DNA from: Streptomyces wedmorensis
GTDB taxonomy: Bacteria; Actinomycetota; Actinomycetes; Streptomycetales; Streptomycetaceae
Direction of reading: 5' to 3'
Assembly (NCBI RefSeq): GCF_000716445.1
Contig: NZ_JNWK01000082.1
Coordinates: 1 to 28,515, forward strand
DNA: 28,515 nucleotides
Both the position numbers and the translations under genes were made by a program. The notes below the pieces were generated by a model that had not been told where the DNA came from, made no database searches, and saw only the letters and a list, made by a program, of their open reading frames with translations. Below, piece by piece: positions 3,597 through 28,515 of the stretch (within the stretch, counting starts at the first letter, position 1; the number at the start of each line of letters is the position of its first letter).

Positions 3597-3663
3597 GTCG
3601 CGGTACGCGTCCTCGTCGACGTTGGGCCAGCGGCGCGCCCCTCCCCCGTGGCCTCACCGATCG

Positions 3664-4785: not shown

Positions 4786-4971
4786 ATTATCGAGACTTGC
4801 GGACAGCTACCGTCCTCGATGCGAGGTGGGGGCGAGGCGCCCGGAAGAGAGATACCGGCGTGCGGGATTCACCCCATATATCCTGCTCTCGGCCCGCAGA
4901 CACACCTGTCCCGCAGACACGCCCGTCGCGCGGGCGGCCCGTCGCGCGGACCGAGGAGGAGGTACGCGAAG

Positions 4972-6078: not shown

Positions 6079-6149
6079 AGCCAAGTCGCAACGCGAGGCG
6101 GTCGGGAACGCCGTCGACGTGCGGCCGGCTCGCTCTCCCGCGGAGCGGC

Positions 6150-9762: not shown

Positions 9763-10020
9763 TTACGAGAATTCCGGCAACCATTCCCAGTCGCCGGGCA
9801 GGGACCGCAACCGACTGAATCCCTGTTCGAGACAGTCACTCAGGCTGGAGGATTCGGCACGAATGAATCCCTGCTCGCCCAGTCCTGGACCCGACATCAC
9901 CACAGTCCAGGGCTCGCCATCTTCCGCCATCCTCTCGTCGTCCACCTTGAGGATCACGGTGACGCCTGAGCGGCCCAGCCTCTCCATGAGCTGCTCCATG
10001 TCCATCCTCTGCACTCCCAT
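9763..10020 (-). CDS. Probable immunity protein for the Doc-like toxin
   Basis: 85 aa, small and acidic, with VTVILKVDDERM near residues 20-31 and WTVVMSGPGLGEQGF near 38-52. I do not recognise the family. Its ATG at 10020 shares one base with the toxin stop (TGATG), and GAGGGG lies about 6 bases upstream, so the two proteins are translationally coupled. A small gene directly after a polymorphic toxin is almost always its immunity gene, and that is the basis of the call. No Phd-like DNA-binding segment is visible, so it does not look like the usual antitoxin of free Doc. GC content looks lower than in the surrounding genes. The strong hairpin just downstream closes the operon. Confidence 0.65.
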   Translation of the reverse strand: MGVQRMDMEQLMERLGRSGVTVILKVDDERMAEDGEPWTVVMSGPGLGEQGFIRAESSSLSDCLEQGFSRLRSLPGDWEWLPEFS

Positions 10021-12197
10021 CAGTAACCCCTCAAGGCTGCCGAGATGCCGCTGACATCGTGCAGCTGACCTTTGCCGACTCGGTCGATGACCCTTCGAAG
10101 GTCGGCGGAGGTGGGGCCGCTCGTGACCCGGTTCCGACGCATCAGCTCTTCCACGACAGCCTGGGCAGTGCGCTTGCTTCCGTTGTCGAACATGTGACCA
10201 CCGGCAATATCGCGAATCACGACGGCCGACTTGTCCCAGAAGCTGTGGTATCGGCTGGCGTTGGCCATGGTGTTGGCCGGTGAACCGCTCAGCAGGGTTT
10301 GACCGCCGAAACCACGATTGATCTTGACGATCTCGTCAGGGGTCACACCTACCTTGAAGCCGCCGGTCAGCGAGCAGTTGGAATTGTGAACGAGGACCGG
10401 CGTCTGTCCCGCCAGCACATAGTACGTGTGCAGGTCGGAGACGGTGAGGTCGTGTGTGCGGTACGGCGCTTGCTCGTTGCGGGCCTTGGTCACGACGGCC
10501 CGGGCGCCATTCGGTGTGTGTAGTTCGTCGCCGGGTCGGAGGTCTCGGGCGTTACTCCACTGCTGGTGGTTCGTCACCCAGAAGGGGTGGTTGTCCGTCG
10601 CGGTGATGTCGGCGGAGCCTGGCGCGGTCGTGACGGTGAGGTGGGTGAAGTGTTTGTCGCCGGCGGTGGTGAAGGTGTTGGTCACCGGCCGGGTGGAGGT
10701 GAGCCCTGTCCGCGGGTCGCCTGCGGTGACCAGGTCGCCGATGCGGATGTCCTCGATGGCGCGGGTGGTGTGGTCGGCCAGGAGCACCTGGGTGCCCGCG
10801 GGGAAGCTGTGCGGCTTGGCGCAGTCCGCGGCGTCGCGTTCCGACCGCGCTTGGTCGGCGAGCTTCTTCGCCTCGACCTTGGCCAGCGCGCGGGCGTCGA
10901 TGAAGGTGTCGGCACGGAGGGGATAGGTGAGGCGGACCTTGCAGCCGCAGGCCTGGGCGTCGGCTTCTGCCTGGGCTTGGACGCGGGCTGAGACTGAGGA
11001 GTAGAGCGGTCCGGCTCCCGGGTTGGTGCACTTCAGGGTGCCGGCGACGGAGTTGCCTCGGACCGGGAAGGTGCGCTGTGGGCTGGTGCAGGAGCCGGCG
11101 GGTTTGCCGTCGATGGAGAAGGTCGCGTTCATCACCGCGGTGACTTCGCCTCGGGTGACGCGTTCCTTCCGGGCGATGGAGGTGACCTCGCCCGTGAAGG
11201 CTTGGGTGGCGGTGCAGCCCGTGGGGCCGCAGTCCATCTCGCCCGAGCCGTCGAGGGTGAAGGTGATGCCTCCGTCGGTTGCGTCCTCGAGCTGGTCCGC
11301 GTACTCGACCAGCGTGTCGAACATCCGGTCGGCGGCGTCGGCGAGAACCGGAGTCAGGTCCATTCCCTCGGCGCCACCGGACGCCAGGGGCCCGGTGGTG
11401 ACCCTGCGGGGAGCCGTCGGGGCCTCCCCGTTCTCCAGTTGGTCCCTCACGTCGGCGAGCCCTTCGCGGAGGTCGTATGCCTCCAGCCGCAGCACCCGGT
11501 GCGGCTTCGCCCTCGTCACCAGCAGACGGCCGGCCGAGGTGTCGATGCCGAGTGCGGGCACGCCGTTCACGCTGTGCGGCGGCTTCGGCCCGTTCGCCGG
11601 TGACGGGGACTTCTCCAGGTCGGCCAGAGCCTTCGCCAGCACGGCTGCCAGCTTCGACGGAGCGATGGTGCGAGCCAGCGCCTCGTCCATGAGCGTGGAT
11701 CCGTCGTCCAGCCCGACGATCCACTCGCTGGGCGGCGCCTTCTCGTCCGCTCCCACGTCCCTGCCGGGAGCTGGGTCGGTCTGCCAGCGTGTGAACGTCC
11801 TCCCGCCGATGCGCAGCACGTCTCGACCGGTGTCGCTTCTGCCGGACTTGGTGGTGCCGTAGGTGCTTCCTGCCGCGGTCACCGTGAAGGTGTTCTCGGT
11901 GATGCCGAACGAGGAAGTGTCCTTGTAGTGCACACCCGGGGCGGTGGCGAGGCCTTCCACCGCCTCGCGGAACGGCTGCAGGTCACGCGCCGTCGCCCTG
12001 GAACCGTCGGGTGCGCTGCCGGAGTTCAGCAAGGTGACTGCGATGACGGCGATCACCAGAGTCAGGATCCAGGCCGGCAGGGCGATCCGCGGCCACGAGC
12101 CGAGCCGTTGCCATCCTTCGTACGCCGGGCTTGTCGTACCGGCGGGCCCGAAGCGGGGCTCGCCGTCTTCACCGGAGGCGGGGTTCTGTTGGGACAC
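10020..12197 (-). CDS. Membrane-anchored HINT polymorphic toxin with Doc/Fic-like C-terminal domain
   Basis: 725 aa from GTG 12197 (AAGGGGGAC upstream). A short cytoplasmic N-terminus precedes one TM helix (38-57, PAWILTLVIAVIAVTLL). An exported region of about 400 residues follows, with Cys at 323, 328, 370, 390, 417 and 419. Then comes a pre-toxin HINT domain (459-605): Cys459 in CAKPHSFPAGTQV, NHPFW at 536-540, and VLVHN at 601-605, where autocleavage is expected. Residues 606-725 resemble Doc: TPDEIVKIN at 619-627, the Fic-type motif HMFDNGSKRTA at 668-678, and a QLHDVSGISAAL tail. Doc transfers phosphate to EF-Tu and other Fic proteins AMPylate targets; which reaction applies is unknown. 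Ser674 sits where Doc has Asn. The HINT and TM assignments are firm; the Doc call rests on motif and helix order. The 85-aa gene follows immediately. Confidence 0.82.
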   Translation of the reverse strand: MSQQNPASGEDGEPRFGPAGTTSPAYEGWQRLGSWPRIALPAWILTLVIAVIAVTLLNSGSAPDGSRATARDLQPFREAVEGLATAPGVHYKDTSSFGITENTFTVTAAGSTYGTTKSGRSDTGRDVLRIGGRTFTRWQTDPAPGRDVGADEKAPPSEWIVGLDDGSTLMDEALARTIAPSKLAAVLAKALADLEKSPSPANGPKPPHSVNGVPALGIDTSAGRLLVTRAKPHRVLRLEAYDLREGLADVRDQLENGEAPTAPRRVTTGPLASGGAEGMDLTPVLADAADRMFDTLVEYADQLEDATDGGITFTLDGSGEMDCGPTGCTATQAFTGEVTSIARKERVTRGEVTAVMNATFSIDGKPAGSCTSPQRTFPVRGNSVAGTLKCTNPGAGPLYSSVSARVQAQAEADAQACGCKVRLTYPLRADTFIDARALAKVEAKKLADQARSERDAADCAKPHSFPAGTQVLLADHTTRAIEDIRIGDLVTAGDPRTGLTSTRPVTNTFTTAGDKHFTHLTVTTAPGSADITATDNHPFWVTNHQQWSNARDLRPGDELHTPNGARAVVTKARNEQAPYRTHDLTVSDLHTYYVLAGQTPVLVHNSNCSLTGGFKVGVTPDEIVKINRGFGGQTLLSGSPANTMANASRYHSFWDKSAVVIRDIAGGHMFDNGSKRTAQAVVEELMRRNRVTSGPTSADLRRVIDRVGKGQLHDVSGISAALRGY

Positions 12198-13295: not shown

Positions 13296-16133
13296 ATGCA
13301 CGCAATGCACGCAGCGCCGGAGAACCCCACACCCCACACACCCGATCTGGTAGAGCGTGACGAGGCCCTCGCGGCGCTCGGCCTGCTGCTCGACAAGTCC
13401 GCCTCCGGCAGAGGGCGGATCGCCCTCGTCCACGCCCCGCTGGGCGGCGGCAAGAGCAAACTCCTGCACGACTTCCTCGAAACCGTCGACCCCGCCGAGG
13501 GGCTCGTGCTCAGCGCGACCGCGTCCTGCCCCGAGCGCGCGCTCCCCTTCGGAGTCCTGTCGCAGCTCTTCCAGACGTCCCAGGTCCCGCAGCGCGTACG
13601 CGACGACATGGACGCCCTGTTCAGCGCGATGCCGGCCCGCGAGGAGGCCGTCGGCCCGGCCACCGCCGGTCTGCCGGCGGAGACGATGACCACCCTCCGC
13701 AAGATCGTCCTCGCGCTGGTCGACCTCGCCGAGAACCGCCGGCTCGTGATCGGGATCGACAACCTCCACGAAGTCGACGCCCCCTCCCTGCGCTACCTGG
13801 CGTCGATCCTCCCCCGGCTCCGGAACGTGAGTTCGCTGGTCGTCATGACCGACGACACCGGCCGGCGCGCCACCAGCGACCGACTGCGGACCGACCTGCT
13901 CCGGCAGCCCAACCTCCACCGGATCGACCTGGGACTCCTGACGCGGGCAGGCGTCCGCCGGCTGCTCACCCAGCACCTCGGCGCGGCGGAGGCGGCCCGG
14001 CTCACCGCCGGATTCGCCGAGGTGAGCGGTGGCAACCCGCTCGTCCTTCAGCACCTCCTGAGCGATCACCGCGCCGGTCTCGGAGACGATCCGCGCGCCT
14101 ACAGCCGCGCCCTGCTGAACTGCCTGTTCCACGGCGAACCCGACCTGCTCGTCGTACTGCGCGCCCTCGCGGTCCTCGGGCACGACGCTCCGCCGCAGCG
14201 GCTCGCCCTGCTCGCCGGGCTCGACGTGGCGGCGGTCGAAGGCGCTCTGCACGCCCTGAACAGCGCCGGGTTGGTGAACGGGACCGCGTTCCGACATCCC
14301 ACGGCGGCCGCCGACGTGCTGGACGACATGCCGGCAGCCGACCACGCCGCGCTGCGGCGCCGAGCCGCCGAACTCCTCCACGCCGAGAGCGCCCCGGCCG
14401 TCGCGGTCGCCGAACAGCTCGTGGCCGTCGGACACACCGGGCCGCCCTGGGCCGGGGACGTCCTCCTCGAGGCGGCCCGCGACTCCCTCTCCGCCCACCG
14501 GCCCCGACGGGCGGCCGACTACCTGGAGCTCGCCGAGCGCACCGGCGGCGACGACTCGTCACGAGCGGCCGTACGGGCCCGCCTCGGCCGCCTCAAGTGG
14601 CAGCTCCAGCCGCCGTCGGCCGTGCACTCCCTGGCACCGCTGATCGAGGACGTGTCGGCCGGACGCACCGGCACGCACGAACTGCTCGACCTGCTGTGGG
14701 CCCTGTCCTGGCACGGCGAACCCGACAGGGTCCACGACCTGTTGCGGCAGGCCGAGGCCCGGTGGCACGAGCTCGACGACGAGGACCTCACCGCCCTGCA
14801 CAGCGTGCGCACCTGGCTGGCCTGCGCGTACCCCGCGTATCCGGGCGGCACGCCCCGGCCGCCGGCGCCCGCCGCCCCGTACCGTGCGCCCGGCCATCAG
14901 CTCGACCCCTGGTCGACGGCGGCGGCCCTCGCCGAGGACCTCATCCGCGGCGACGCCACGCGGCTCGCGGCCCGGGCCGATGCCGTGCTGCACACGGCGC
15001 GGCCCGATCACCACTCGCTGTGGAACGGCGAGGCCGCGCTGCTCGCCCTCCTGTGCCTGGTGTACACCGACAGCTTCGAGACCGCGACCGGTTGGTGCGA
15101 CCATCTACTGGACGAGGCCAGTACCCGCAACACCCCGACCTGGTCGGCTGTTTTCACCGCCGTACGGGCCGAAACGGCGCTGCGAGCGGGCGACTTGAAC
15201 GCCGCTTCGGCAGCCGCGCGGCAAGCGCTCGACCTGCTCCAGGCCGACGCGTGGGGCGTGGCGCTCGGCCTGCCGCTGGGCACGCTGGTGCTGGCCAACG
15301 TCCGCATGGGCAGGCTCGACCAGGCGGCGGACCTGCTCGCGGAGCCGTTCCCCGAGGCGATGCTCCGCAGCCGCTACGGACTGCACTATCTGTACGCCCG
15401 CGGCCACTACCGCCTCGCCACCGGGCAGGCCCGGTCCGCGCTCGCCGACTTCCTCCAGTGCGGCAAGCTCACCCGGAGATGGGCCCTTCGCGGCACCGGC
15501 CCCGTGCCCTGGCGCACCAGCGCCGCCGAGGCCTGGCTCAAGCTCGGCAAGCAGGACCAGGCGGGACTGCTCGCCCGGGACGAACTCAGCAGGCTCTCCC
15601 CGGACAGCCACCGGGCCCGCGGCCTCGCGCTGCGCGTGCTCGCGGCGGCGGCGGGCACCGCCGAGCGGCCACGGCTGCTCGAAGAGGCCGTCGACGTCAT
15701 CAAGGAGTGCGACGACAAGTTCGAGCTGGCCCGCACCCTGAGCGACCTGTCCCAGGCCCACAAGGCGGCCGGTGACCACGGCAGTGCCCGGCGGGCGGCG
15801 CGCAGGGCTTGGCCGATAGCCCGGGCCTCCGGCGCGGAGACCCTCTGCCGCGAAGTCGCTCCCGGCCCGCCGGCTCCCGTCGAGCCCGCGGACCGTCCGG
15901 CCAGGAAGGCCCCGAAGGGCGGCGCCCCCGCCGCCGTCGCCACCCCCGCCACCCCCGCCGCCGCCGTCGCCGCCCTGACGACCCGGGAGAGGCACGTCGC
16001 CACGCTCGCCGGCCGCGGCTACACCAACCAGGAGATCGCGGCCCAGCTGCTGATCACCCACAGCACGGTGGAACAGCACCTCACCCGGGTGTTCCGCAAA
16101 CTCAATGTGAAGCGCCGTCAGGACCTGCCGTGA
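13296..16133 (+). CDS. LAL-family (LuxR-type, ATP-binding) transcriptional regulator
   Basis: 945 aa from ATG 13296, with AGAGG 6 bases upstream; homology begins at LVERDEALAALGLLLD, only 14 residues in. The AAA-like ATPase has a P-loop HAPLGGGKSKLL (Gly-Lys-Ser at 51-53) and LVIGIDNLHEVDAPSLRYL (Walker B, about 149-167). A long helical/TPR-like middle is followed by a Pro/Ala linker and a LuxR helix-turn-helix at 894-945 (LTTRERHVATLAGRGYTNQEIA ... STVEQHL). LALs are pathway-specific activators of type I PKS clusters, PikD being an example. I saw no TTA codon. The protein stops soon after the HTH, as is usual. It heads a rightward run with the phosphoesterase and PPTase and probably activates the convergent PKS operon. 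A 9-bp repeat (GCACGCAAT) straddles the start codon. Confidence 0.9.
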   Translation: MHAMHAAPENPTPHTPDLVERDEALAALGLLLDKSASGRGRIALVHAPLGGGKSKLLHDFLETVDPAEGLVLSATASCPERALPFGVLSQLFQTSQVPQRVRDDMDALFSAMPAREEAVGPATAGLPAETMTTLRKIVLALVDLAENRRLVIGIDNLHEVDAPSLRYLASILPRLRNVSSLVVMTDDTGRRATSDRLRTDLLRQPNLHRIDLGLLTRAGVRRLLTQHLGAAEAARLTAGFAEVSGGNPLVLQHLLSDHRAGLGDDPRAYSRALLNCLFHGEPDLLVVLRALAVLGHDAPPQRLALLAGLDVAAVEGALHALNSAGLVNGTAFRHPTAAADVLDDMPAADHAALRRRAAELLHAESAPAVAVAEQLVAVGHTGPPWAGDVLLEAARDSLSAHRPRRAADYLELAERTGGDDSSRAAVRARLGRLKWQLQPPSAVHSLAPLIEDVSAGRTGTHELLDLLWALSWHGEPDRVHDLLRQAEARWHELDDEDLTALHSVRTWLACAYPAYPGGTPRPPAPAAPYRAPGHQLDPWSTAAALAEDLIRGDATRLAARADAVLHTARPDHHSLWNGEAALLALLCLVYTDSFETATGWCDHLLDEASTRNTPTWSAVFTAVRAETALRAGDLNAASAAARQALDLLQADAWGVALGLPLGTLVLANVRMGRLDQAADLLAEPFPEAMLRSRYGLHYLYARGHYRLATGQARSALADFLQCGKLTRRWALRGTGPVPWRTSAAEAWLKLGKQDQAGLLARDELSRLSPDSHRARGLALRVLAAAAGTAERPRLLEEAVDVIKECDDKFELARTLSDLSQAHKAAGDHGSARRAARRAWPIARASGAETLCREVAPGPPAPVEPADRPARKAPKGGAPAAVATPATPAAAVAALTTRERHVATLAGRGYTNQEIAAQLLITHSTVEQHLTRVFRKLNVKRRQDLP

Positions 16134-16167: not shown

Positions 16168-17016
16168 GTGACCCACGGAAAGCTGTTCGCGCTCAGCGAC
16201 CAGCACGTCACCCATCAGGAGAACCGGCGGATCACGGAGTCGCTGCGGCCGGAGTCCGACGACGACTGGCTGCTCGTCGCCGGGGACGTCGGCGAGAAGT
16301 TCGAGGACATCGCCTGGGCCCTGAAGCTCCTCGCCGGCCGGTTCTCCCGGGTCGTCTGGGCGCCCGGCAACCACGAGCTGTGGAGCCATCCCGCCGACCC
16401 GGTCACGCTGCGCGGCGTCGCCCGTTACGACGCCCTGGTCGAGCTGTGCCGCACCCTCGGCGTACTGACGCCCGAGGACCCGTACCCGGTCTGGCACGGC
16501 GAGGACGCGCCGGTGACGATCGCCCCGCTGTTCGTCCTGTACGACTACTCCTTCCTGGCACCCGGAGCGCGCACCAAGGAGGAGTCCCTGCGCGTGGCCC
16601 ACGAGGCGGGGGTGGTGTGCACGGACGAGTACCTGCTGCATCCCGACCCGTATCCGTCGCGGGACGCCTGGTGCCGGGCCCGGGTCGCCCTCACCGAGCA
16701 ACGGCTCGCGGCCGTCGACCCCGGGCACGGCACCGTCCTGGTCAACCACTATCCGCTGGTGCGGGAACCCACCCGCGTCCTGCGCCATCCCGAGTTCGCG
16801 CAGTGGTGCGGCACCGAGCTGACCGCCGACTGGCACCGGCGCTTCCGGGCCGTCGCCGCCGTCTACGGGCACCTCCACATCCCGAGGGTCACCTGGCACG
16901 ACGGGGTGCGCTTCGAGGAGGTGTCGATCGGGTATCCGCGCGAGTGGCGGCCCCGGCCGCCCCGCTCGCCGCTGCGCCGGATCCTGCCCCGTCCCGCTGC
17001 GGAGCGCACGGCGTGA
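16168..17016 (+). CDS. Calcineurin-like metallophosphoesterase
   Basis: 282 aa, GTG start at 16168 with GGTGGAAGGA upstream. It carries the ordered metal-binding motifs of the calcineurin-like fold: SDQH (Asp11, His13), AGDVGE (about 38-43), APGNHELW (about 68-75), VNHYPL in the C-terminal half and YGHLHIP near the end. It is a cytoplasmic, two-metal phosphoesterase of unknown substrate. Its stop overlaps the GTG of the PPTase (GTGA), so the two are translationally coupled. I recall this pair being a recurrent neighbourhood in Streptomyces, which hints at a link to carrier-protein or CoA metabolism, but no direct evidence is seen here. Confidence 0.88.
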   Translation: MTHGKLFALSDQHVTHQENRRITESLRPESDDDWLLVAGDVGEKFEDIAWALKLLAGRFSRVVWAPGNHELWSHPADPVTLRGVARYDALVELCRTLGVLTPEDPYPVWHGEDAPVTIAPLFVLYDYSFLAPGARTKEESLRVAHEAGVVCTDEYLLHPDPYPSRDAWCRARVALTEQRLAAVDPGHGTVLVNHYPLVREPTRVLRHPEFAQWCGTELTADWHRRFRAVAAVYGHLHIPRVTWHDGVRFEEVSIGYPREWRPRPPRSPLRRILPRPAAERTA

Positions 17017-17735: not shown

Positions 17736-18077
17736 GTGCGGCGTGGTGAGGTCTGGTGGGCCGATTTCGGCGAGCGGCGGGCCGTGGTGCTGCTGTCGGA
17801 GGGGACGAACGCCGAGTTCCGCGGGATGCAGATCGTCGAGCCGGTCACCGTCGACATCACGGGACTCGGACTCGAGGTGCCGGTGGGCGCCGCCGACGGC
17901 CTGGCGCTCGAAGGAGTGGTGCGGGTCGCCTTCCCGCAGCCGGGCATGACGCCCTGCACCTGGCTCGCGACGCTGACGGAGCGGGACGTGATCGAGCGGG
18001 CCGGAGAGCTGTCCGAGGCCAAGCTCGCCGAGATCGAGGAGGCCCTCCGGCTCGGCGGCATCACCACCCGGGTCTGA
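17736..18077 (+). CDS. MazF/PemK-like protein without a visible antitoxin
   Basis: 113 aa from GTG 17736, with CTGGAGG upstream. The start MRRGEVWWADFGERRAVVLLS is the classic N-terminus of MazF/PemK/CcdB-fold endoribonucleases (RGEVWWxDF ... RPVVVL). The middle is less typical and the usual downstream threonine and serine positions are hard to place, so activity is uncertain. These proteins cut mRNA at short sequences and normally sit after a small antitoxin gene. Here the upstream gene is a PPTase and the downstream one is on the opposite strand, so no partner is present. Its 3' end overlaps the end of the convergent DAHP-synthase-like gene by 17 bases. Confidence 0.72.
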   Translation: MRRGEVWWADFGERRAVVLLSEGTNAEFRGMQIVEPVTVDITGLGLEVPVGAADGLALEGVVRVAFPQPGMTPCTWLATLTERDVIERAGELSEAKLAEIEEALRLGGITTRV

Positions 18078-19251
18078 CGGAAGCGTCGCGGGGATCCGCG
18101 CGGCGCCCCTCCTGGCGGGGGTCCCGCCGAGCCCCGCCGCAGGCCTCGGCGAAGTGGAACGCCACGTCGAGCGCCGGCCCGCGGTCCGGGCCGCCGGTCG
18201 CCGGACCGCCGCCGGACGCGGCCGCCGGATCCACGTGGACGCCGCCCGGATGGCTCCCCGAGGACCGGTGGACCTCGACGAAACCCCGCACCTCGTCGCG
18301 TACCTCCTCGCGCGTGGTGTTGGCGCGCACCGGATCGCTCACCCAGCAGACCGAGGCGCCCTCCGCCCGTACCTTCTCGACGACGGCGGGCAGCAGGTCG
18401 CGCACCCGGTCCGCGCCCATCGCCGCCACCAGCGTCAGCCGTCCCGGCGCCCGGTGCGGATCGAGCCGGTCCACGGCGGCGAGCACCGTGTCCGGGCAGG
18501 TGCCGGGCCCGAGCCGGACGGCGACGGGGTTGTGGACCGAGGAGAGGTGGCCGGCGTGGTCCCCGCCCGGCTCGTGGGACTCCCCCAGCCACAGCAGGTG
18601 CCCCGTCGTGGCGTACGGGACGTCGTGGCCCGCTTCCGGGTGCGGCTCGGCGACGGTGAGCGCCCGCTCGTAGTCGAGCAGCAGGCTCTCGTGCCCGACG
18701 AAGAACTCCGGCGGTGCGCCGACTCCGCTCCGGTCGAGTCCGTAGGCCCGCAGGAAGTCCAGACTCCGGCCGATCTCGGCCAGCAGCCCCTCGTGCCGGG
18801 CGCCGGTGTCGGAGGCGGCGGCGTGGTCCTCGTTCCAGGCATGGATCCGGCGCAGGCCGGGGGCGGGAGCGGCGGTGAGGGCCCGCAGCAGATTGAGCGC
18901 CGCGACGGAGCTCTCGTACTCCTGGCGCGGCGCCCGGGCTTCGCGGCCCGGGGGCGGCGGCGCGCACGCCCCCACGGTCCAGCCGACCTTGACGACCGGC
19001 AGTGCCGTCGCGTGGGCGAGGAGCATCTCCATCTGGAGCAGGGTCCGCCGACGCTGCCGCATCCCGTCCTCGGTGAGGGCGTGCAGCGGCTCGGCGCGGC
19101 TGCCGCCCAGCAACAGGACGGCCTCGCCCCGGGCGACCGAGGCCGTGCGGCGGCGCAGGAGTGCGCACCCCGCCGCCGGGACCGGCGGTGGCATCGCCGC
19201 CGGTCGCCGTGCCTCGGAGCCGTCGGGGCCGATGCCGGTGGTGTGGGTCAC
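18061..19251 (-). CDS. Class II DAHP synthase homologue lacking catalytic residues
   Basis: 396 aa, GTG start at 19251. The class II DAHP synthase (AroH/RifH) fold is clear: RRRTLLQM, PVVKVG (85-90), IHAWNEDH, GHESLLLDYERAL (186-198), LLWLGE, RLGPGT, PGRLTLVAAMGADRVRDLLPAVVEKV (269-294) and GFVEVHRSSGSHPGGVHV. The active site is not conserved. GGDCAE is GGSRAE (metal-ligand Cys to Arg52), CDPMHGN is SDPVRAN (ligand His to Arg309), SRMG is AAMG (substrate Arg lost), KVGR is KVGW and HVELTG is HVDPAA. The stretch that normally carries CDPRLN is shortened by roughly 30 residues. It should not make DAHP or aminoDAHP by the known mechanism. Position as last gene of the PKS operon, 22 bases after the thioesterase gene, argues for a retained role. 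It could also be a decaying gene, but the frame is intact. Confidence 0.85.
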   Translation of the reverse strand: MTHTTGIGPDGSEARRPAAMPPPVPAAGCALLRRRTASVARGEAVLLLGGSRAEPLHALTEDGMRQRRRTLLQMEMLLAHATALPVVKVGWTVGACAPPPPGREARAPRQEYESSVAALNLLRALTAAPAPGLRRIHAWNEDHAAASDTGARHEGLLAEIGRSLDFLRAYGLDRSGVGAPPEFFVGHESLLLDYERALTVAEPHPEAGHDVPYATTGHLLWLGESHEPGGDHAGHLSSVHNPVAVRLGPGTCPDTVLAAVDRLDPHRAPGRLTLVAAMGADRVRDLLPAVVEKVRAEGASVCWVSDPVRANTTREEVRDEVRGFVEVHRSSGSHPGGVHVDPAAASGGGPATGGPDRGPALDVAFHFAEACGGARRDPRQEGRRADPRDASVRPGW

Positions 19252-19273: not shown

Positions 19274-20041
19274 TCAGTGGAGCGTGGGGGTCGGTGCGGC
19301 CAGCCGGTCCGCGATCAGGTCCGTCACCTTCTCGTGCTGGTCGACGAGGTAGAAGTGGCCACCGGGCAGCGTGATCACCTCGAACGCGGCGGAGGTGTGC
19401 GCCCGCCAGGCGGCCGCGTCCTCCGCCGAGACCTTCGGGTCGTCCCGTCCGGTCAGCACCGTCACGGGGCAGCCCAGCGGCGGCCCGGCCTCGTACCGGT
19501 AGGTCTCCACGGCCCGGTAGTCCGCGCGGATCACGGGCAGGGCCATGCGCATCAGCTCCTCGTCCGCGAGGACCCGCGGATCGGTGCCGCCGAGCTCGGC
19601 CATCGCACGCAACAGGCCCTGGTCGTCCAGCCGGTAGTCGAACTCGGCGCGCTGGATGTCCGGTGCGCGGCGGCCCGACGCGAAGAGCCGGACGGGCGGG
19701 TGTCCCTTCTCGGTCAGCAGCCGGGCCACCTCGAAGCCGAGCAGGGAGCCGAGGCTGTGTCCGAACAGCGCGAGCGGCCGGTCCGTCCACGGGACGAGCT
19801 CGTCCACGACGCGTGCGGCGAGTTCGGTGAGGGATTCGATCAGCGGCTCACAGCGGCGTTCCAGCCGTCCCGGGTACTGCACGGCGAGCACGTCGACGTC
19901 CGGGGAGAGGGCCTTGGCCACGGGGACGAAGAAGGGGGCCGATCCGCCCGCGTGCGGCAGGCAGACGAGCCGGATCCGGGCGTCGGGCGCCGGACGGTAC
20001 CGGTATGTCCAGCGCGAGTTGCGGGCGTCGGGGGTGGTCAT
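19274..20041 (-). CDS. Type II thioesterase
   Basis: 255 aa alpha/beta hydrolase from ATG 20041 (GAGGAGC upstream). These enzymes clear aberrant acyl groups from PKS carrier proteins. Catalytic residues are visible: Ser96 in GHSLG, Asp200/201 in LTGRDDP, and His229 in PGGHFYL. The oxyanion-side LPHAGGSAPFF (28-38) and YPGRLERR are standard for the RifR/TEII family, and the length is normal. It starts 46 bases after the dehydrogenase stop within the same minus-strand operon. A separate type II enzyme does not conflict with the absence of a TE domain on the PKS, since chain release is assigned to the amide synthase. Confidence 0.93.
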   Translation of the reverse strand: MTTPDARNSRWTYRYRPAPDARIRLVCLPHAGGSAPFFVPVAKALSPDVDVLAVQYPGRLERRCEPLIESLTELAARVVDELVPWTDRPLALFGHSLGSLLGFEVARLLTEKGHPPVRLFASGRRAPDIQRAEFDYRLDDQGLLRAMAELGGTDPRVLADEELMRMALPVIRADYRAVETYRYEAGPPLGCPVTVLTGRDDPKVSAEDAAAWRAHTSAAFEVITLPGGHFYLVDQHEKVTDLIADRLAAPTPTLH

Positions 20042-20087: not shown

Positions 20088-20963
20088 TCACGATGCCGTC
20101 CCGTCGTAGCGGAAGAAACCCCGGCCCGCCTTGCGGCCGAGCCGGCCGTCCTCGACCATCCGGGACAGCAGGGGAGGCACCTCGTCGACGAGGTCGTCGG
20201 AGTTCTCCCGCATGCTCCGCGCCACGGCGGTGATGGTGTCGATCCCGATCATGTCCAGCAGGGCGAGGGGTCCCATCGGGTGGCCGCATCCGAGGGTCAT
20301 GCCGCGGTCGATGTCCTCGGCACTGGCCACCCCCCGCTCGTACATGCGGACGGCCGCCATCAGGTAGGGCACGAGCAGCGCGTTGACCACGAAGCCGCAG
20401 CGGTCCTGGGTCCTGACGACCTCCTTGCCGAGCAGGTCGACCACGAACGACTCGGCCCTGTCGACGGTCGCGTCGCCGGTGCGGTCGGACCGGACGACCT
20501 CCACGAGCGGCATGACCGGGACCGGGTTGAAGAAGTGCATGCCGACGACGGCCTCGGGACGGCCGGTCACCTCGGCGAGGTCCGCCACGAGCAGGCTGGA
20601 CGTCGTGGAGGCCAGGACGGCGGCCGGATCGGCCACCGCCGCGTCGAGCGCCTTGAACACCCGGCGTTTGGTCTCCAGGTCCTCGGCCACGGCCTCCACC
20701 ACGAGCTGTCTGTCGGCCAGTTCGGAGGGGTCCACGGCGAACCGGAGGCGGTCGGCGGCCCCCGTGCGCTCCTCGGTGGTCATCCGCCCCTTGGCGACGG
20801 CCCGGTCGAGCGCGCGGAGGATCCGCTCCGACGCGGGCCCGATCCGGCCCGGCGACGAGACCACGACCCGTACGTCGAGTCCGGCGCGCAGGGACACCTC
20901 GGCGATCCCGGCCCCCATGGCGCCGCAGCCGACGACGCCCACTCGGCTCAGTGCGTCCGCCAT
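20088..20963 (-). CDS. 3-hydroxyacyl-CoA (3-hydroxybutyryl-CoA type) dehydrogenase
   Basis: 291 aa from ATG 20963, which shares one base with the KAS III stop. The NAD(P)-binding Rossmann motif is GVVGCGAMGAGIAE (9-22). The catalytic histidine is His143 in GMHFFNPVPVMPLVEVV, paired with the downstream Asn/HPMGPLALLDMIG region, as in FadB2/Hbd enzymes. It should reduce the 3-ketoacyl-CoA formed by the adjacent KAS III to the 3-hydroxyacyl-CoA. Dehydration to the 2-enoyl-CoA then gives the substrate for the CCR; the dehydratase is not encoded in the window. One-base overlap with KAS III and an 8-base gap from KAS III to CCR imply coupled expression of the three enzymes. Confidence 0.92.
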   Translation of the reverse strand: MADALSRVGVVGCGAMGAGIAEVSLRAGLDVRVVVSSPGRIGPASERILRALDRAVAKGRMTTEERTGAADRLRFAVDPSELADRQLVVEAVAEDLETKRRVFKALDAAVADPAAVLASTTSSLLVADLAEVTGRPEAVVGMHFFNPVPVMPLVEVVRSDRTGDATVDRAESFVVDLLGKEVVRTQDRCGFVVNALLVPYLMAAVRMYERGVASAEDIDRGMTLGCGHPMGPLALLDMIGIDTITAVARSMRENSDDLVDEVPPLLSRMVEDGRLGRKAGRGFFRYDGTAS

Positions 20964-22006
20964 CACCGTCCTCCTCGCGGGGTCGACCAGCGCAGCAGAC
21001 CGGCGCCGACCGCCATGCCCGCGCCGAAGCCGGCGAGCAGCACGAGGTCGCCGTCGCGCAGCGCACCGGAGCGGTTCGCCTCGTCCAGGGCCACGGGGAC
21101 CGAGGCCGAGCCGATGTTGCCCGAGTGGCGCAGCGGCAGATGGGTGTGGGCGCCGTCGAGGCCGCTGGCCGCGGCGAGTGCCGTCACCAGCGTGCCGTTG
21201 GCCTGGTGGGGCACGAAGTGGTGCACGTCGGAGGCTTCTTGACCGCAGCGCTTGAGGAGGCCGGCGAGGACGCCGGGCACGTTGTCGAGGACGAAGTCCT
21301 TCACCCCCCTGCCCTGCATGCGCAGCAGATGGCCGCCGTCGGCGACCGTCTCGGCCGAGGCCGGGCGGCGGCTGCCGCCCGCCTCCATGCTGATCAGCTC
21401 GTGGGCGTCGCCCCGGCCGACCAGCTCGATGTCGAGGAGGCCGCGCTCCGCGCCGGGGACGGCGCCCGGGAGCGCGCCGACGACGGCGGCGCCCGCGCCG
21501 TCGCCGAAGAGGACGCTGGTGGCGCGGTCCTCGAAGTCCACGAACCGGGTGTACACGTCGGTGCCGATCACCAGTGCCTTCGTCTCCGGCCTGAGCGCGA
21601 CGAACGCCCGCGCGACGGCCAGGGCGGACATGAACCCGGTGCAGGCGATGTTGATGTCGAAGCAGGCTGCCTGGTGGGCGCCGAGCGCACGCTGCACCAG
21701 GGAGGAGGTCGCCGGGATCGGGGCGTCGCCGGTGGTGGTGGAGACGATGACGAAGTCGAGCCGTTCGGCGGCCAGTCCGGCCTGGTCCAGCGCGGCGCGG
21801 GCCGCGTGCACGGCGAGGTCGGAGGCGGCCTCGTCGGGTGCGGCGTAGCGGCGCGAGAGGATCCCGGTCCTGCTCTCGATCCACTCGGCGGAGGTGTTCG
21901 GGACCCGGACGACGATGTCGTCGTTGGTGACCACCCGCTCGGGCAGGTAGGAGCCGGTCCCGAGGATGGTGACGGGCAGGGCGCCGTTCGTCGTGTCGAT
22001 GCTCAC
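20963..22006 (-). CDS. 3-oxoacyl-ACP synthase III (KAS III/FabH-like)
   Basis: 347 aa from GTG 22006, with GAGG upstream. The Cys-His-Asn triad is complete: Cys122 in DINIACTGFMSAL, His267 in HHFVPHQANG, and Asn297 in RHSGNIGSAS. It starts the extender-unit pathway by condensing an acyl-CoA with a malonyl unit to a 3-ketoacyl thioester. In branched-extender clusters the primer can be isobutyryl-CoA or another short acyl-CoA; the primer here cannot be read from sequence. The protein is a free-standing initiation-type KAS, not a PKS KS. It sits between CCR and dehydrogenase with nearly no intergenic DNA, so the three probably act as one set. Confidence 0.93.
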   Translation of the reverse strand: MSIDTTNGALPVTILGTGSYLPERVVTNDDIVVRVPNTSAEWIESRTGILSRRYAAPDEAASDLAVHAARAALDQAGLAAERLDFVIVSTTTGDAPIPATSSLVQRALGAHQAACFDINIACTGFMSALAVARAFVALRPETKALVIGTDVYTRFVDFEDRATSVLFGDGAGAAVVGALPGAVPGAERGLLDIELVGRGDAHELISMEAGGSRRPASAETVADGGHLLRMQGRGVKDFVLDNVPGVLAGLLKRCGQEASDVHHFVPHQANGTLVTALAAASGLDGAHTHLPLRHSGNIGSASVPVALDEANRSGALRDGDLVLLAGFGAGMAVGAGLLRWSTPRGGR

Positions 22007-22013
22007 GCGTGCC

Positions 22014-23366
22014 TCACCCGGCCGGCGGGGCGTCGGGCGCGAAGGAGCGCAGCACGGTCAGCCGGTCCTCGCCGATGCGCGCGCGGAGCTCGGGGTCGGT
22101 GACGCCGAGGCCGGGCCGGTCGGCCAGGCACAGCACGCCGACCTTGCCGATGTGCTCGTTGAGCTGGACGAGGCGGGTCGCCTCGCCGATCTGCTCCAGC
22201 GGGTACAGGGCGGTCAGCGCCGGCATGATGCTGCCCTGGGTGAACAGCCGGGCGGTGTCGACCTGTTCCTGGAGGTTGGCGACGTGGCTGCCGATGATCC
22301 GCTTGAGCCGCATCCACAGGTAGCGGTTGTCGAACTGGTGCTGGTAGCCGGTGCTCGACCCGCAGGTGACGACGGATCCGCCCCGTCGCACGACGAACAC
22401 CGAGATGCCGAACGTGGACCGGCCGACGTGGTCGAAGACGATGTGCGGGTCTTCTCCGACGCCCTGCCGGATCAGCCGGCCGAGGGCCTTGCCCTGTGCC
22501 ACGACGCGTTCGGGGTCGTCGCCCAGGTCGTCGCCGATGCCGATGTCGGCCCGGTTGATGACGAGGTCGCAGCCGAGCGCGCGGGCCGCCTTCGCCTTCT
22601 CCTCGGAGCCCACGACGCCGACGGCGACGCCGCCGCCGTTCTTCACGAGCTGGACGGCGTACGCGCCGAGGCCGCCCGAGGCGCCCCAGATCAGCACGAC
22701 GTCGCCCTGCTTCATCCGCGCGCCCCGGTCGCTCACCAGCATCCGGTACGCGGTTCCGGCGCAGGCCGGTGTGGTGGCGGCCTCCTCCCAGGTCAGATGG
22801 GCCGGCTTGGGGATGAGCTGGCTGGCCCGCGCCACGCAGTAGTGGGCGAGGCCGCCGTAGTTCGTCTCGAAGCCCCAGGCGAGCTGGTGGTCGCTGAGCA
22901 TGCCGTCGGCCTGGACCGACGCCTCCTGGTCGTCGACGCACGCGGCGTTGACCATCACGTGGTCGCCGGTCTTCCAGCGGCGTACGCCGTTGCCGGTCCG
23001 CACGATCACCCCGGCCGCGTCCGAGCCCAGCACGTGGAACGGCTGGTCGTGCCGGGACGCCCAACCTCCCTCCTTGCCGTACGACTTGAGGAAGCGGAAC
23101 GTGGAGAGGGGTTCGAAGGTGGCCGACCAGACGGTGTTGTAGTTGATCGAACTGGCCATGACGGCGATCAGCACCTCGTCGGGTGCCAGTTCGGGCATCG
23201 GCACGGGGCCGACGCGCAGGGTCTTGCGCACGTCCCGGTCTTCGACGCCCTGGAAGACGTTCTCGTCCTCCACGCGCAGGTGGGCGGCGGTGAATTCGGC
23301 CGGCAGCGGGGTGTTCGCCAGGACCTCGGGCGAGGCGCCCGCCAGGACCGCTTCGGACAGTGACAT
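22014..23366 (-). CDS. Crotonyl-CoA carboxylase/reductase (CCR) family enzyme
   Basis: 450 aa medium-chain dehydrogenase from ATG 23366 (AAGGACACC upstream). CCRs reduce a 2-enoyl-CoA with NADPH and trap CO2 to give an alkylmalonyl-CoA. The CO2-pocket residues are conserved: Asn in SSINYNTVW (72-80), Phe166-Glu167 in WGFETNYGG, and His361 in GSHVAN. The NADPH loop is LIWGASGGLGAYAVQL (225-240). The pocket segment TPACAGTAYRML (199-210) differs from the one I remember for primary-metabolism CCRs (GLVNSTAYRQL) and may mark a preference for longer or branched enoyl-CoAs. Together with KAS III and the dehydrogenase it completes a dedicated extender-unit route. The exact substrate is not determined. 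Confidence 0.94.
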   Translation of the reverse strand: MSLSEAVLAGASPEVLANTPLPAEFTAAHLRVEDENVFQGVEDRDVRKTLRVGPVPMPELAPDEVLIAVMASSINYNTVWSATFEPLSTFRFLKSYGKEGGWASRHDQPFHVLGSDAAGVIVRTGNGVRRWKTGDHVMVNAACVDDQEASVQADGMLSDHQLAWGFETNYGGLAHYCVARASQLIPKPAHLTWEEAATTPACAGTAYRMLVSDRGARMKQGDVVLIWGASGGLGAYAVQLVKNGGGVAVGVVGSEEKAKAARALGCDLVINRADIGIGDDLGDDPERVVAQGKALGRLIRQGVGEDPHIVFDHVGRSTFGISVFVVRRGGSVVTCGSSTGYQHQFDNRYLWMRLKRIIGSHVANLQEQVDTARLFTQGSIMPALTALYPLEQIGEATRLVQLNEHIGKVGVLCLADRPGLGVTDPELRARIGEDRLTVLRSFAPDAPPAG

Positions 23367-24196: not shown

Positions 24197-27100
24197 TCAG
24201 TCCGCGGTGAGCGCGTCGATGCGCTCCAGCAGCTGCTCGGCGAGCATCTCCACCGTGGGGTACTCGAAGGCGAAGGCGGCGGGGAGCCTCAGCCCGGTCA
24301 GGCCGGACAGCCGGTTGCGCAGTTCGACGGAGGTCAGCGAGTCGAAGCCGACCTCGAACAGGACGGTCTCCGGTCCGAAGTCGTCCGCCGAGAGGTGGCC
24401 GAGGACCGCCGCCGCCTCCTGGACGACCAGTTCGAGGAGGATCGCTCCACGCTGTTCGCGGGGTGCTTTGGCGAGCGCGTCGGCGAGCCGGCTCGCCCCG
24501 GCCGCCGTCCCGTCGCCGACCGCCCGGCGGCCCACCCTGAGCAGGCCGCGCAGCAGCGGGGGCACGTGGTCGGCGCTCGTCGTGGCGCGCATGGCGGCGA
24601 AGTCGAACTTCGCCGGTGCCAGCACGGCGTCCGGGGCGCGCAGCGCGGCGTCGAAGAGCTCCATGCCCTCCTGTTCGGTGAAGGCGAGGATGCCGAGCCG
24701 GTCGATGCGCTGGAGGTCGATCTCGCCGAGGTGTTCCACGATCTCGGAGGTCTGTCCCCACCAGCCCCAGGCGAGGGAGGTGGCGGGCAGGCCGACGGCC
24801 TGGCGGTGCTGGGCGAGGGCGTCGAGGAACGCGTTGGCCGCCGCGTAGCTGCCCTGACCGGGGTTGCCGAGGGTGCCGGCGGCCGAGGAGAACAGCACGA
24901 ACGCGGCCAGGTCGAGGCCGGACGTCAGCTCGTGGAGATGGACGGCCGCGTCGATCTTCGGCCGGAAGACCGTGTCGAGCCGCTCGGGGGTGAGGGCCGT
25001 GACGACACCGTCGTCGAGGACGCCCGCCGTGTGGATCACGCCGGTCAGCGGGGCCTCGGCGGGTATCTCCGCCAGCAGCGCCGCCAGGGCCTCGCGGTCG
25101 GCGACGTCGCAGGCCGCGATCCGCACCCGGGCGCCCAGGCCGGTCAGCTCGGTCTCGAGCGCGTCGGCGCCGGGCGCCTCCGGTCCGCGGCGCGACACGA
25201 GCAGCAGGTTCCCGACCTGGTGTTCCCGCACCAGGTGGCGGGCGACGAGACCGCCGAGCGCTCCGGTGCCGCCGGTGATGAGCACCGTGCCGGCCGGGTC
25301 GAGCTTCCGGTGCCGCCCCCGCGCGGGCTCGGCCCGTACCAGTCGCGGCACGTGGACCGCTCCCTTGCGGACGGCCACCTGCGCGTCGAAGGACGCCAGG
25401 ACGCCCGGCAGGGCGCGCAGCGACTCCTCCGTGTCGTCGGTGTCGACCAGGACGACGCGGCCGGGGTTCTCGGCCTGTGCCGAGCGCAGCAGGCCCCACA
25501 GCGCGGCGGCCGACAGGTCGGTCGGCTCGCCCCCGGCGGCGACGGCGCCGTGCGTCACGGCGAGCAGCCTGGTGTCCTCCAGGGTGGGTTCGGCCAGCCA
25601 TGCCTGGAGCAGCTCCAGGACCTGGGCGGCCACGTCGCGCACCTCGTCGGCGTCGGGGCGGTCGCCGCCGAAGACGTCGAGGAGCAGGAGCGCGGTGTCG
25701 GTGCCGGCGAGGGCGCGGACGTCCTCGGCGGTGGCGACGGAGACGGCGGCCAGTTCGGCGTCCTGGGACTTGACCGTGGTCGGCTCCCACTCCACGCGGA
25801 ACATCTGCTCGGCCACCGCGCCGGAGCCGGCGCGCAGGGCGGCCGGGTCCACCGGCCTGGCCACCAGCGACTCGACGGAGGCGACGGGGGCTCCGGTGCT
25901 GTCGGCGAGGTGCAGGGTGATGGTGTCCTCGCCGCTCGGGACCAGGCGCAGCCGCAGGGCGTCGGCCCCGGCCGCGTACAGCCGTACGTCGCTCCACGCG
26001 AAGGGCAGCACCAGTTGCCGCTCTCCGTCGCCCGGCCGGAAGACCCCGGCGTGCAGGCAGGCGTCGAGCAGCGCCGGGTGCAGTCCGAAGCCGTCGGCCT
26101 TGCCCGCCTCTTCGGGCAGGGCGATCTCGGCGAAGATCTCCTCGCCCCGGGTCCACACCGACCGCAGGCCCCGGAAGGCGGGCCCGTAGCCGTACCCGCT
26201 TCCGGCCAGTCCGTCGTACGCGGTGACGGCGGCGTCCTCGACCGGCTCGGCGCCGCGCGGCGGCCACTGGGTCAGCTCGAAGTCGGGTTTGCCGTTCTCG
26301 GGCGCCAGTTGCCCCGACGCGAGCCGGGTCCAGGCCGTGGCCGGGCCGGCGTCCTCGCGGCGGGAGTGGATGGTGAACCGGCGGTGTCCCGAGCCGTCCG
26401 CGTCGGCGATCTCCACCCGGAGCTGCACGCCGCCCTGCGCGGGCATGGCGAGCGGGGCCTCGATCACCAGCTCGGCGAGCAGCTCGCAGCCGGCCTCGTC
26501 ACCGGCCCGCAGGGCCAGCTCGACCAGGGCGGCGCCGGGTACGAGCACCGTCCCGGCGGCGGCGTGGTCGGCCAGCCACGGGTGCGAGAACAGCGAGAGG
26601 CGGGAGGTGAACAGGAGGGCGCCGGAGCCGGGGATCTCCGTCATCGCGCCGAGGAGGGGGTGCGCGACGGCGGCCAGGCCCAGGCCGGCCGGGTCGCCCG
26701 CGCCGGAGGTGGTGTCCAGCCAGTAGCGCTGCCGCTGGAAGGCGTACGTGGGCAGCTCGGCGGCCGGACCACCGGCCTCGCCGAGGACGGCGTTCCAGTC
26801 GACGGGCACGCCGCGCACGTGGAGGGCGGCCATCGCCTCCAGGAAGCGGCGGGGGCCGCTCTCCTCGCGGCGCAGCGTCCCGGTCACCAGCGCGGAGGCC
26901 ACGCCGGCGGCTTCGAGGCTCTGCTCGATCGCCGGGACGAGTACGGGGTGGGTGCCGGCCTCCACGAAGACGTCGTGGCCACCGGCGCCGAGGGCGCGGA
27001 CCACCGGGTCGAGGCGGACCGTCTGCCGCAGGTTCCGGTACCAGTACCCGGCGTCGAGTCCCGCGGTGTCGAAGAGCCCGCCCGTCACCGTCGAGTAGAA

Positions 27101-28515
27101 GGGCATCTCGGAGGAACGGGGGGCGAGACCGGCCAGGGCCTCGACGAGTTCCTGCTCGACGGCGTCGACGTGGGAGGAGTGCGAGGCGTAGTCGGCGGGG
27201 ATCGGGCGGACCCGGACACCGGCGTCCTCGCACCCGCGGACAAGACCGGCCAGCGCCTCGGGGTCACCGGCGACGACGAACGCCTCCGGGCCGTTGACCG
27301 CCGCGATGTCGAGCCTGCCGGGCCACGGCGCCATGAGTTCCGCCAGCCGCCCGGGGTCCGCCGCGACCGAGGCCATCGCGCCCCGGCCGGACAGCGCGGT
27401 CGCCACGACGCGGCTGCGGATCACGACGACCTTCGCCGCGTCCGCCAGGCCCAGCCCGCCGGCCACGCAGGCCGCCGCGATCTCGCCCTGCGAGTGGCCG
27501 ACCACCACGTCCGGGACGAAACCCGCGGCCTGCCACAGCGCGCCCAGGGAGACCATGACGGCGAACGACACCGGCTGCACGACGTCGACCGCGTCCAGCG
27601 AGGGCGCCCCCTCCGTCTGCCGGATCACATCGAGCAGCGACCATCCGGTCAGCGGGTCGAGTACCTCGGCGCACTCCCGCATCCGGGCCGCGAACACCGG
27701 CGAGGAGTCGAGGAGATCGGCTCCCATGCCGGGCCACTGGCCACCCTGCCCGGGGAAGACGAGCACCTTCCGCCCGTGCAGCGGACCGCCCAGACCGGTG
27801 ACGAGGCCCTGCGCGGGCTCGTCCGCCCCCAGTGCCGCCAGACCCGTCAGCGCCTCCTCGCGGTCTCCCGCGACGAGGACGGCCCGCTCGGGCAGCGGGC
27901 CCCGGGTGCGTACGAGGGAACGTGCCGCGCCGGCCGCGCTCACGTCCGGGTGCGCGGCGAGGTGCGAAGCCAGACGCCGGGCCTGTCCCGCGAGAGCCCC
28001 TCTGCCACGCGCCGAGAGGACGAGCGGGACGGGCCCGGCGACGAGCGGTTCGGACGCGTCGTCGGTGCGGGCGGGCGCAGGCTCGGGGGCCTGTTCCAGG
28101 ATGACGTGGGCGTTGGTTCCGCTGACTCCGAAGCTCGACACACCGGCTCGGCGGGGCCGGTCGACCTCGGGCCAGGGCCGGGCCTCCGTGAGCAGCTCCA
28201 CGGCACCGGACGCCCAGTCCACCTGGGGCGTCGGCTCGTCGACGTGGAGGGTCTGCGGCAGCACGCCGTGCCGCATCGCCATCACCATCTTGATGACGCC
28301 GGCGACACCGGCGGCGGCCTGCGTGTGCGTCGCCCAGCGCGGTCCCGGTGCCGTGCGCCTCCACCGCGTCCACGTCGGAAGGACGCAGGCCCGCGTTGGC
28401 CAGCGCCCGGCGGATGACCCGCTGCTGGGAGGGGCCGTTGGGGGCGGTCAGGCCGTTCGAGGCGCCGTCCTGGTTGACGGCGGAGCCGCGTACGACACCC
28501 AGGATCCGCCGGCCG
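24197..28515 (-). CDS. Type I PKS, terminal module KS-AT-DH-KR-ACP, no TE (continues past window; KS frame broken)
   Basis: The frame ending at 24197 is open from 28288 (1363 codons; numbering from there). It holds the KS tail ([19 protein letters not shown]), AT 173-460, DH about 540-745, KR about 999-1170 and ACP about 1285-1355, ending TAD. AT: Ser266 in GHSQGE and YASH at 367-370, plus DVVQP, predict methylmalonyl-CoA. DH: His575 ([10 protein letters not shown]) and Asp742 suggest activity. [14 protein letters not shown] at 1091-1093 (B type), Tyr1148 and Asn1152, active. ACP: GFDSL, Ser1317. No ER or TE. The module would add an alpha-methyl enoyl unit, then pass the chain to the amide synthase. 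Upstream of about 28325 the KS continues in another frame ([23 protein letters not shown]) because of an internal deletion. Confidence 0.92.
28325..28331 (-). other. Deletion junction inside the ketosynthase
   Basis: Reading leftward on the minus strand, the KS passes through [11 protein letters not shown] and is followed at once, in a different frame, by [21 protein letters not shown]. In an intact KS about 31 residues (PIEAQ ... SNIG) lie between these motifs, so about 92 bases are missing and the frame is lost. The first catalytic His motif (EAHGTGT) is present. The second (NIGH) is cut at the junction. Confidence 0.8.

Follow-up and report, generated by a model that had tools for sequence, protein, structure and literature searches.

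The 28,515-bp window analysed here comprises the entire contig C82 of the 9.38-Mb, 259-contig draft genome of Streptomyces wedmorensis, and the last gene of its polyketide synthase (PKS) operon, at 18061..19251 on the minus strand, encodes a 396-aa protein that is derived from the type IIA 3-deoxy-D-arabino-heptulosonate 7-phosphate (DAHP) synthases and has lost their active site. Judged from its sequence, this pseudo-DAHP synthase almost certainly makes neither DAHP nor its amino analogue (aminoDAHP). The explanation that we prefer, with a probability of roughly 0.4, is that the protein is a catalytically dead paralogue acting as a non-catalytic partner, possibly in the supply of 3-amino-5-hydroxybenzoic acid (AHBA).

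A preliminary description of the window had proposed an open reading frame here for a class II DAHP synthase homologue without its active site, and both parts are borne out. The frame starts with GTG and has G+C contents of 0.81/0.58/0.93 at the three codon positions, typical of coding DNA; the match to Pfam DAHP_synth_2 (PF01474) is strong (242.6 bits, E 7.8e-72), and the score against TIGR01358, the model of functional class II DAHP synthases, is 258.8 bits, below the curated equivalog cut-off of 614.7 bits, under which the RifH comparator L082 (401 bits) also falls. Among 13 catalytic positions (Mycobacterium tuberculosis numbering), only Glu283 is kept, as Glu224 (18580..18582; this and the following codons are on the minus strand), vs. 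12 of the 13 kept in all 30 rows of an intact type IIA set and the remaining one, Glu411, in 29 of them. The metal ligands Cys87, His369, Glu411 and Asp441 correspond to Arg52 (19096..19098), Arg309 (18325..18327), Asp341 (18229..18231) and a gap, and the other residues that bind phosphoenolpyruvate (PEP) besides Glu283, that is, Arg126, Arg284, Lys306 and Arg337, to Trp91 (18979..18981), a gap, Arg246 (18514..18516) and Ala277 (18421..18423, in the SRMG motif). At the motif level, GGDCAE has become GGSRAE, GR(I/M)AGQ reads GWTVGA, WIGERTR reads WLGESHE, K(L/I)GP reads RLGP, R(M/A)G reads AMG, DPMHGN reads DPVRAN and HVELTG reads HVDPAA; CDPRLN is deleted, and KPRS is replaced, with the adjoining downstream loop piece, including YRGD, deleted. 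The RifH enzymes of ansamycin pathways do retain the catalytic residues, as had been stated earlier: all 13 are intact in the 10 RifH rows examined.

The fold has nevertheless been preserved. The predicted model is confident and presents the class II DAHP synthase fold; when overlaid on the M. tuberculosis enzyme (2b7o), a comparison that had been suggested earlier, residue 7 of the model pairs with residue 41, the N-terminal extension thus being incomplete. The alpha2a/alpha2b insert, which builds the tetramer interface and the Trp site in the M. tuberculosis enzyme, is present (continuous family match over residues 152-394; model helices at 132-145 and 149-168).

The same losses are found in other strains. 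P0002 and P0003, which are 82-85% identical to the target, share them all except for His369 in P0002, and the search for homologues with shared substitutions and context that had been suggested earlier led to a wider clade, represented by 11 rows. In all 11, position 126 is Trp, vs. Arg in all 30 rows of the intact set (which omits, for no good reason, one S. harbinensis gene, L039/L052, with Trp at 126 and the other motifs intact), position 411 is acidic (Asp/Glu), and the beta2-alpha2 substrate loop is partly deleted. These 11 rows exclude P0001 (the target except for one Pro), P0080 (near-identical to L042, the gene in genome G341), the damaged P0004 and P0005, L040/L083 (the same gene as P0081) and L084 (the same as L041). 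The Catenulispora gene is represented by record P0081 (335 aa), an automatic start choice having shortened L040, and the single TGA in the Catenulispora match is the gene's own terminal stop.

In a tree of 69 rows, from which five duplicate rows had been removed, this Streptomyces and Catenulispora clade has 99/99 support and is nested within the Streptomyces DAHP synthases of the allosteric, trp-operon type IIA group, whose loci hold TrpE-, TrpG-, TrpD- and TrpC-type genes (verified by family for L047 and L048), apart from RifH. The grouping of RifH itself is weak (47/35). A descent of the target from RifH was considered and is ruled out by the nested position of its clade. The underlying protein searches list the best 120 of 671 and the best 120 of 436 matches, and the clade may have further members; it is rare, since a search of 392 genomes of the genus gave only the window copy and the G341 copy, by the motifs of the loci read. 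The pseudo-DAHP synthase gene follows an arylamine N-acetyltransferase (NAT)-fold gene in four lineages, namely the window genome, G341, Catenulispora rubra (L040) and S. viridochromogenes NRRL 3413 (L041). In the last of these, no thioesterase gene directly precedes it, and an in-frame fusion (3237-5342, plus strand; 701 aa) joins it to a dehydrogenase E1 alpha subunit. All four clade genomes carry an extra dehydroquinate synthase gene of the rifG type, vs. none in three comparison genomes with other degenerate DAHP synthases.

A second clade of degenerate DAHP synthases (support 95/94; G029, G734, G075 and G299), adjoining rifG/rifJ or PKS-NAT genes, is independent of the target clade. Two of its four members (L172-L175) retain most of the metal site: in L172 and L173 the Cys, His and Glu are kept (the Asp in L173 only), and Thr replaces Lys306. 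Additional degenerate groups of separate origin occur in Streptomyces (L043, L045, L046 and P0008/P0016; one derived from the primary type and one from the trp type), and the active site has thus been lost repeatedly. We found no report of an inactive DAHP synthase in ansamycin clusters in the open-access literature, subscription papers (e.g., on the hygrocin and divergolide clusters cited in PMC11213898) being outside the scope of the search.

The gene belongs, as previously described, to a PKS operon; the operon is compact, ends with this gene and appears to be of an ansamycin type that combines PKS, amide synthase and ethylmalonyl-CoA genes. It lies on the minus strand and runs from a type I PKS module (24197..28515; a ketosynthase broken near the contig end, followed by acyltransferase, dehydratase, ketoreductase and acyl carrier protein domains) through an NAT-fold protein (PF00797; 23381..24136), a crotonyl-CoA carboxylase/reductase (22014..23366; 542 bits, cut-off 379), a beta-ketoacyl-ACP synthase III (20963..22006; family match), a 3-hydroxyacyl-CoA dehydrogenase (20088..20963; frame set by codon-position G+C) and a thioesterase (19274..20041), which ends 22 bp upstream of the pseudo-DAHP synthase. 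The NAT family includes ansamycin amide synthases, as described in PMC11213898, and by its context the protein encoded here is likely a RifF-like amide synthase. In the ketosynthase (28288-28515), a frame change and a missing conserved piece near the contig end resemble an assembly drop-out. A cluster in G230 (L183) with comparable carboxylase/reductase, synthase III and dehydrogenase genes carries an intact RifH.

The link to a starter pathway that had been suggested finds support on another contig of the same genome, C73, which holds an adenylation-domain PKS start, a rifG-like dehydroquinate synthase, an AHBA-synthesis-associated phosphatase (TIGR01454, above cut-off), an oxidoreductase, an AHBA-synthase-like aminotransferase, a type II dehydroquinase, a ROK kinase and a shikimate-dehydrogenase-like gene. 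By homology and gene order we take these to represent the rifG, I, J, K, L, M and N types. The rif naming is supported by PMC4551226 and PMC8788734. Gene content and the arrangement in G341, where (in a genome of two contigs) the AHBA genes, PKS, NAT, thioesterase and dead DAHP synthase genes form a single run of ~50 kb, suggest that C73 and C82 belong together.

None of the four PF01474 genes of the genome is an intact RifH: besides the target, there is one canonical copy each on C14 and C15, and C14 has a further divergent copy, which has lost Cys87, Lys306 and His369. In the tree, this last copy joins the RifH-type rows by a very long branch, flagged unsafe by the program. This divergent copy (321 aa; 5396-6361, minus strand, L008) lies beside the RifH-like L082/L186 in the tree and directly follows an AroH-type chorismate mutase gene (TIGR01796; 6364-6747, minus strand); genes resembling leuA/leuC/leuD and a prephenate dehydratase gene, recognized by eye, are nearby, and the pair possibly belongs to another pathway. 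In both canonical aroG copies (L001 on C14 and L002 on C15), a deletion that removes the metal-site end begins at the same codon, probably a repeat drop-out in the assembly.

AHBA clusters without a recognizable nearby RifH turned out to be common, which raises the question of where their aminoDAHP comes from. A survey of AHBA synthase genes covered 64 loci in 56 genomes; a PF01474 gene lies within 10 kb in 16 of these and at 10-60 kb in four, one of the four being the dead gene of G341. At 29 loci (24 genomes) the genome has a single PF01474 gene (in G050 and G710 a non-primary or partial one), and at the other 15 of the 64 the PF01474 copies are distant or on other contigs. This set omits G241, G082, G060, G133:C25 and G359, whose genes (61-64% identity) possibly encode another aminotransferase. 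Ten of the 18 RifH-like loci near an AHBA synthase gene were read (8 of 16 within 10 kb and both at 28 kb), rather than being judged by the pattern of hidden Markov model matches alone. AHBA loci without a nearby DAHP synthase were especially frequent in one other family, f18; the two loci read, L190 and L191, contain rifG, I, K, L, M and N types. Because of this survey and the absence of class I DAHP synthase from 11 of 12 genomes tested, it is probably the housekeeping type II enzyme that makes aminoDAHP in strains without a nearby DAHP synthase, assuming that their clusters are active; a statement on the E. coli DAHP synthases in PMC8788734 agrees with this idea.

Whether the pseudo-DAHP synthase is kept by selection can be approached at the level of its clade. 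In the barrel, entropy over 48 columns per face is higher on the catalytic side (1.21) than on the opposite one (0.63; p 0.0002), the reverse of the pattern in active enzymes (0.38 and 0.66, respectively). Invariant columns number 68 among the 288 gap-free ones, vs. 45.1 expected (sd 5.8, max 64) from 200 neutral runs matched in identity, and the four lineages with DNA available contain no stop, an outcome seen in only 2 of the 200 runs. The runs were rescaled to identity since a version scaled to tree length overshot the divergence (identity 0.31 vs. 0.58 observed) and was not relied on. No orthologues close enough for estimating the ratio of nonsynonymous to synonymous substitution rates were found in 346 relatives, the 392 genus genomes or the genome contigs (three loci, two of the clade). 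The preliminary description had read the intact frame as a sign of selection. By itself the frame is weak evidence, since the neutral model expects only about one stop between the target and P0003 and close copies are damaged (below); the sequence data support selection for retention better across the whole clade, and the gene may be eroding in the window's own lineage. The earlier description of the gene as fixed in the operon is to be qualified in view of the damage in P0004 and P0005.

Because the catalytic face is the most variable part of the clade and the opposite face is constrained, we consider a structural or regulatory role without catalysis more likely than a new reaction, and because of its type IIA descent, the housekeeping DAHP synthase would be the most plausible partner. 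That is, the housekeeping enzyme would carry out the step between PEP and imino-erythrose-4-phosphate, and the dead paralogue, retaining the shape of a DAHP synthase subunit including the alpha2a/alpha2b region, would join or mimic DAHP synthase oligomers and adjust flux or feedback to favor the supply of AHBA. The regulatory or scaffolding role of the preliminary description is putative in the same way. A more specific form, in which the dead protein, derived from the trp type, assembles with the housekeeping enzyme, retunes its substrate choice or its release from feedback, feeds AHBA synthesis and so replaces RifH, seems unlikely to us; if it is true, the second degenerate clade, in clusters bearing rifG/rifJ or PKS-NAT genes, would be a convergent case. 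Several observations weigh against the partner role. Partner, complex and phenotype are all putative, and the AHBA genes and the window are on separate contigs. The target has no full counterpart of roughly the first 40 residues of the M. tuberculosis enzyme, which contribute to the dimer interface, and conservation at this interface does not exceed that of the remainder (41% vs. 46% identical); the tetramer-interface region is about equally kept (42% identical and 63% similar, vs. 46% and 55% elsewhere). The Trp at position 126 also occurs in the trp-type enzyme L039 of S. harbinensis (9944-11293, plus strand), which groups outside the dead clade and has its other motifs intact. The target is 48/50/42% identical to its counterparts in three related clusters, vs. 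49-85% for the other cluster genes (leaving aside a synthase III row at 27% in two clusters, which is a different gene), the closest in rate being the LuxR-family LAL regulator (49/53/58%). Residues of the Gly, Ala, Arg and Pro class make up 0.46 of the target vs. 0.345 of intact enzymes, and substitutions avoid conserved columns (p<0.05) in just 6 of the 10 pairs of clade members tested. Finally, the two closest other copies among the matches listed are damaged. About 100 internal residues are missing from P0004 (S. wedmorensis, 274 aa); in P0005 (Streptomyces sp. SS, 691 aa), residues 26-156 are absent, 27 residues in their place match another frame of the window DNA, and the protein runs on beyond the normal end. 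Sequencing or assembly error could account for either case.

A close rival of the partner role is a functionless relic, that is, a DAHP synthase copy captured by the cluster, disused as the housekeeping enzyme suffices, and now decaying amid an operon under selection; a relic would suggest that a dedicated aminoDAHP step is dispensable. The target is among the fastest-evolving of the cluster genes compared, each of the two closest other copies among the matches listed has lost at least ~100 residues (one also having an out-of-frame stretch and a run-on), the target extends by a 22-residue tail and its stop (18061..18129, minus strand) past the end of P0002/P0003, its catalytic face is unconstrained, and many AHBA clusters have no DAHP synthase nearby. 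However, simple decay does not predict open frames kept throughout a clade that spans two genera, with no stop in four DNA lineages, nor more invariant columns than in any of the 200 neutral runs, nor a non-catalytic barrel face as constrained as that of active enzymes. If the target were a new enzyme whose old pocket, with Trp for Arg126 and an acidic side chain at position 411, bound or converted some other pathway compound, this would explain why these two features are present in all 11 clade rows; yet the remaining pocket positions vary between sub-groups of the clade, the substrate loop is damaged in every row and the same Trp is found in L039, and we consider the new reaction in the old barrel proposed earlier improbable. 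That the target is a divergent RifH, still making the aminoDAHP of the cluster with other residues, is more improbable still: membership in an ansamycin-type system with rifG, J, K, L, M and N types and no intact RifH found speaks for it, but metal-ligand Cys and His and PEP-binding Arg and Lys are gone and the erythrose-4-phosphate loop is damaged, all RifH comparators keep these residues, the tree gives a separate origin, and there are AHBA loci with neither RifH nor a gene of this kind. Least probable of all is a mis-assembly. The assembly does seem to drop segments, as in the aroG copies and the ketosynthase, but a recorded protein on a 133,689-bp contig differs by no more than a single proline codon within a poly-proline stretch, and the losses are common to P0002, P0003 and the wider clade, which refutes an artefact as the source of the active-site losses. 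The partner role is the reading we prefer, by a small margin over the relic: a dead DAHP synthase of the allosteric type, with its catalytic face released and the opposite face constrained, would be a candidate regulatory subunit, of relevance to boosting the supply of ansamycin starter units.

Elsewhere in the window, a PemK/MazF-like gene (17736-18077, plus strand) shares 17 bp with the 3' end of the target gene, which lies on the opposite strand, and the LAL regulator with homologues in related clusters lies at 13296..16133 (plus strand). A metallophosphoesterase-like protein, recognized by eye (16168-17016, plus strand), is 66% identical to genes adjoining the second-clade DAHP synthases in L173 and L175. 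A SUKH-3 immunity-type protein (222-1298, minus strand) and a pretoxin-HINT protein (10020-12197, minus strand) form a neighbourhood resembling polymorphic toxins.

Compared with known systems, the target shares with M. tuberculosis AroG and the Streptomyces trp-type enzymes (~50% identity to the latter) the fold and the alpha2a/alpha2b region, and differs from type IIA enzymes in lacking 12 of the 13 catalytic residues, part of the beta2-alpha2 loop and CDPRLN, and in its shorter N-terminal extension. Like RifH, which is type IIB-like, it is part of an ansamycin-type system of AHBA, PKS and amide synthase genes (on two contigs here and on one in G341), whereas most RifH-like family matches are interrupted at the alpha2a/alpha2b site, a few being reported as continuous. 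By analogy, the arrangement may resemble the pseudoenzyme partners EryCII, which activates EryCIII in the account of PMC3391682, and the heteromeric pantothenate kinase described in PMC8366970: here too, next to what is so far a putative partner, an inactive relative would persist alongside an activity still required by the pathway.
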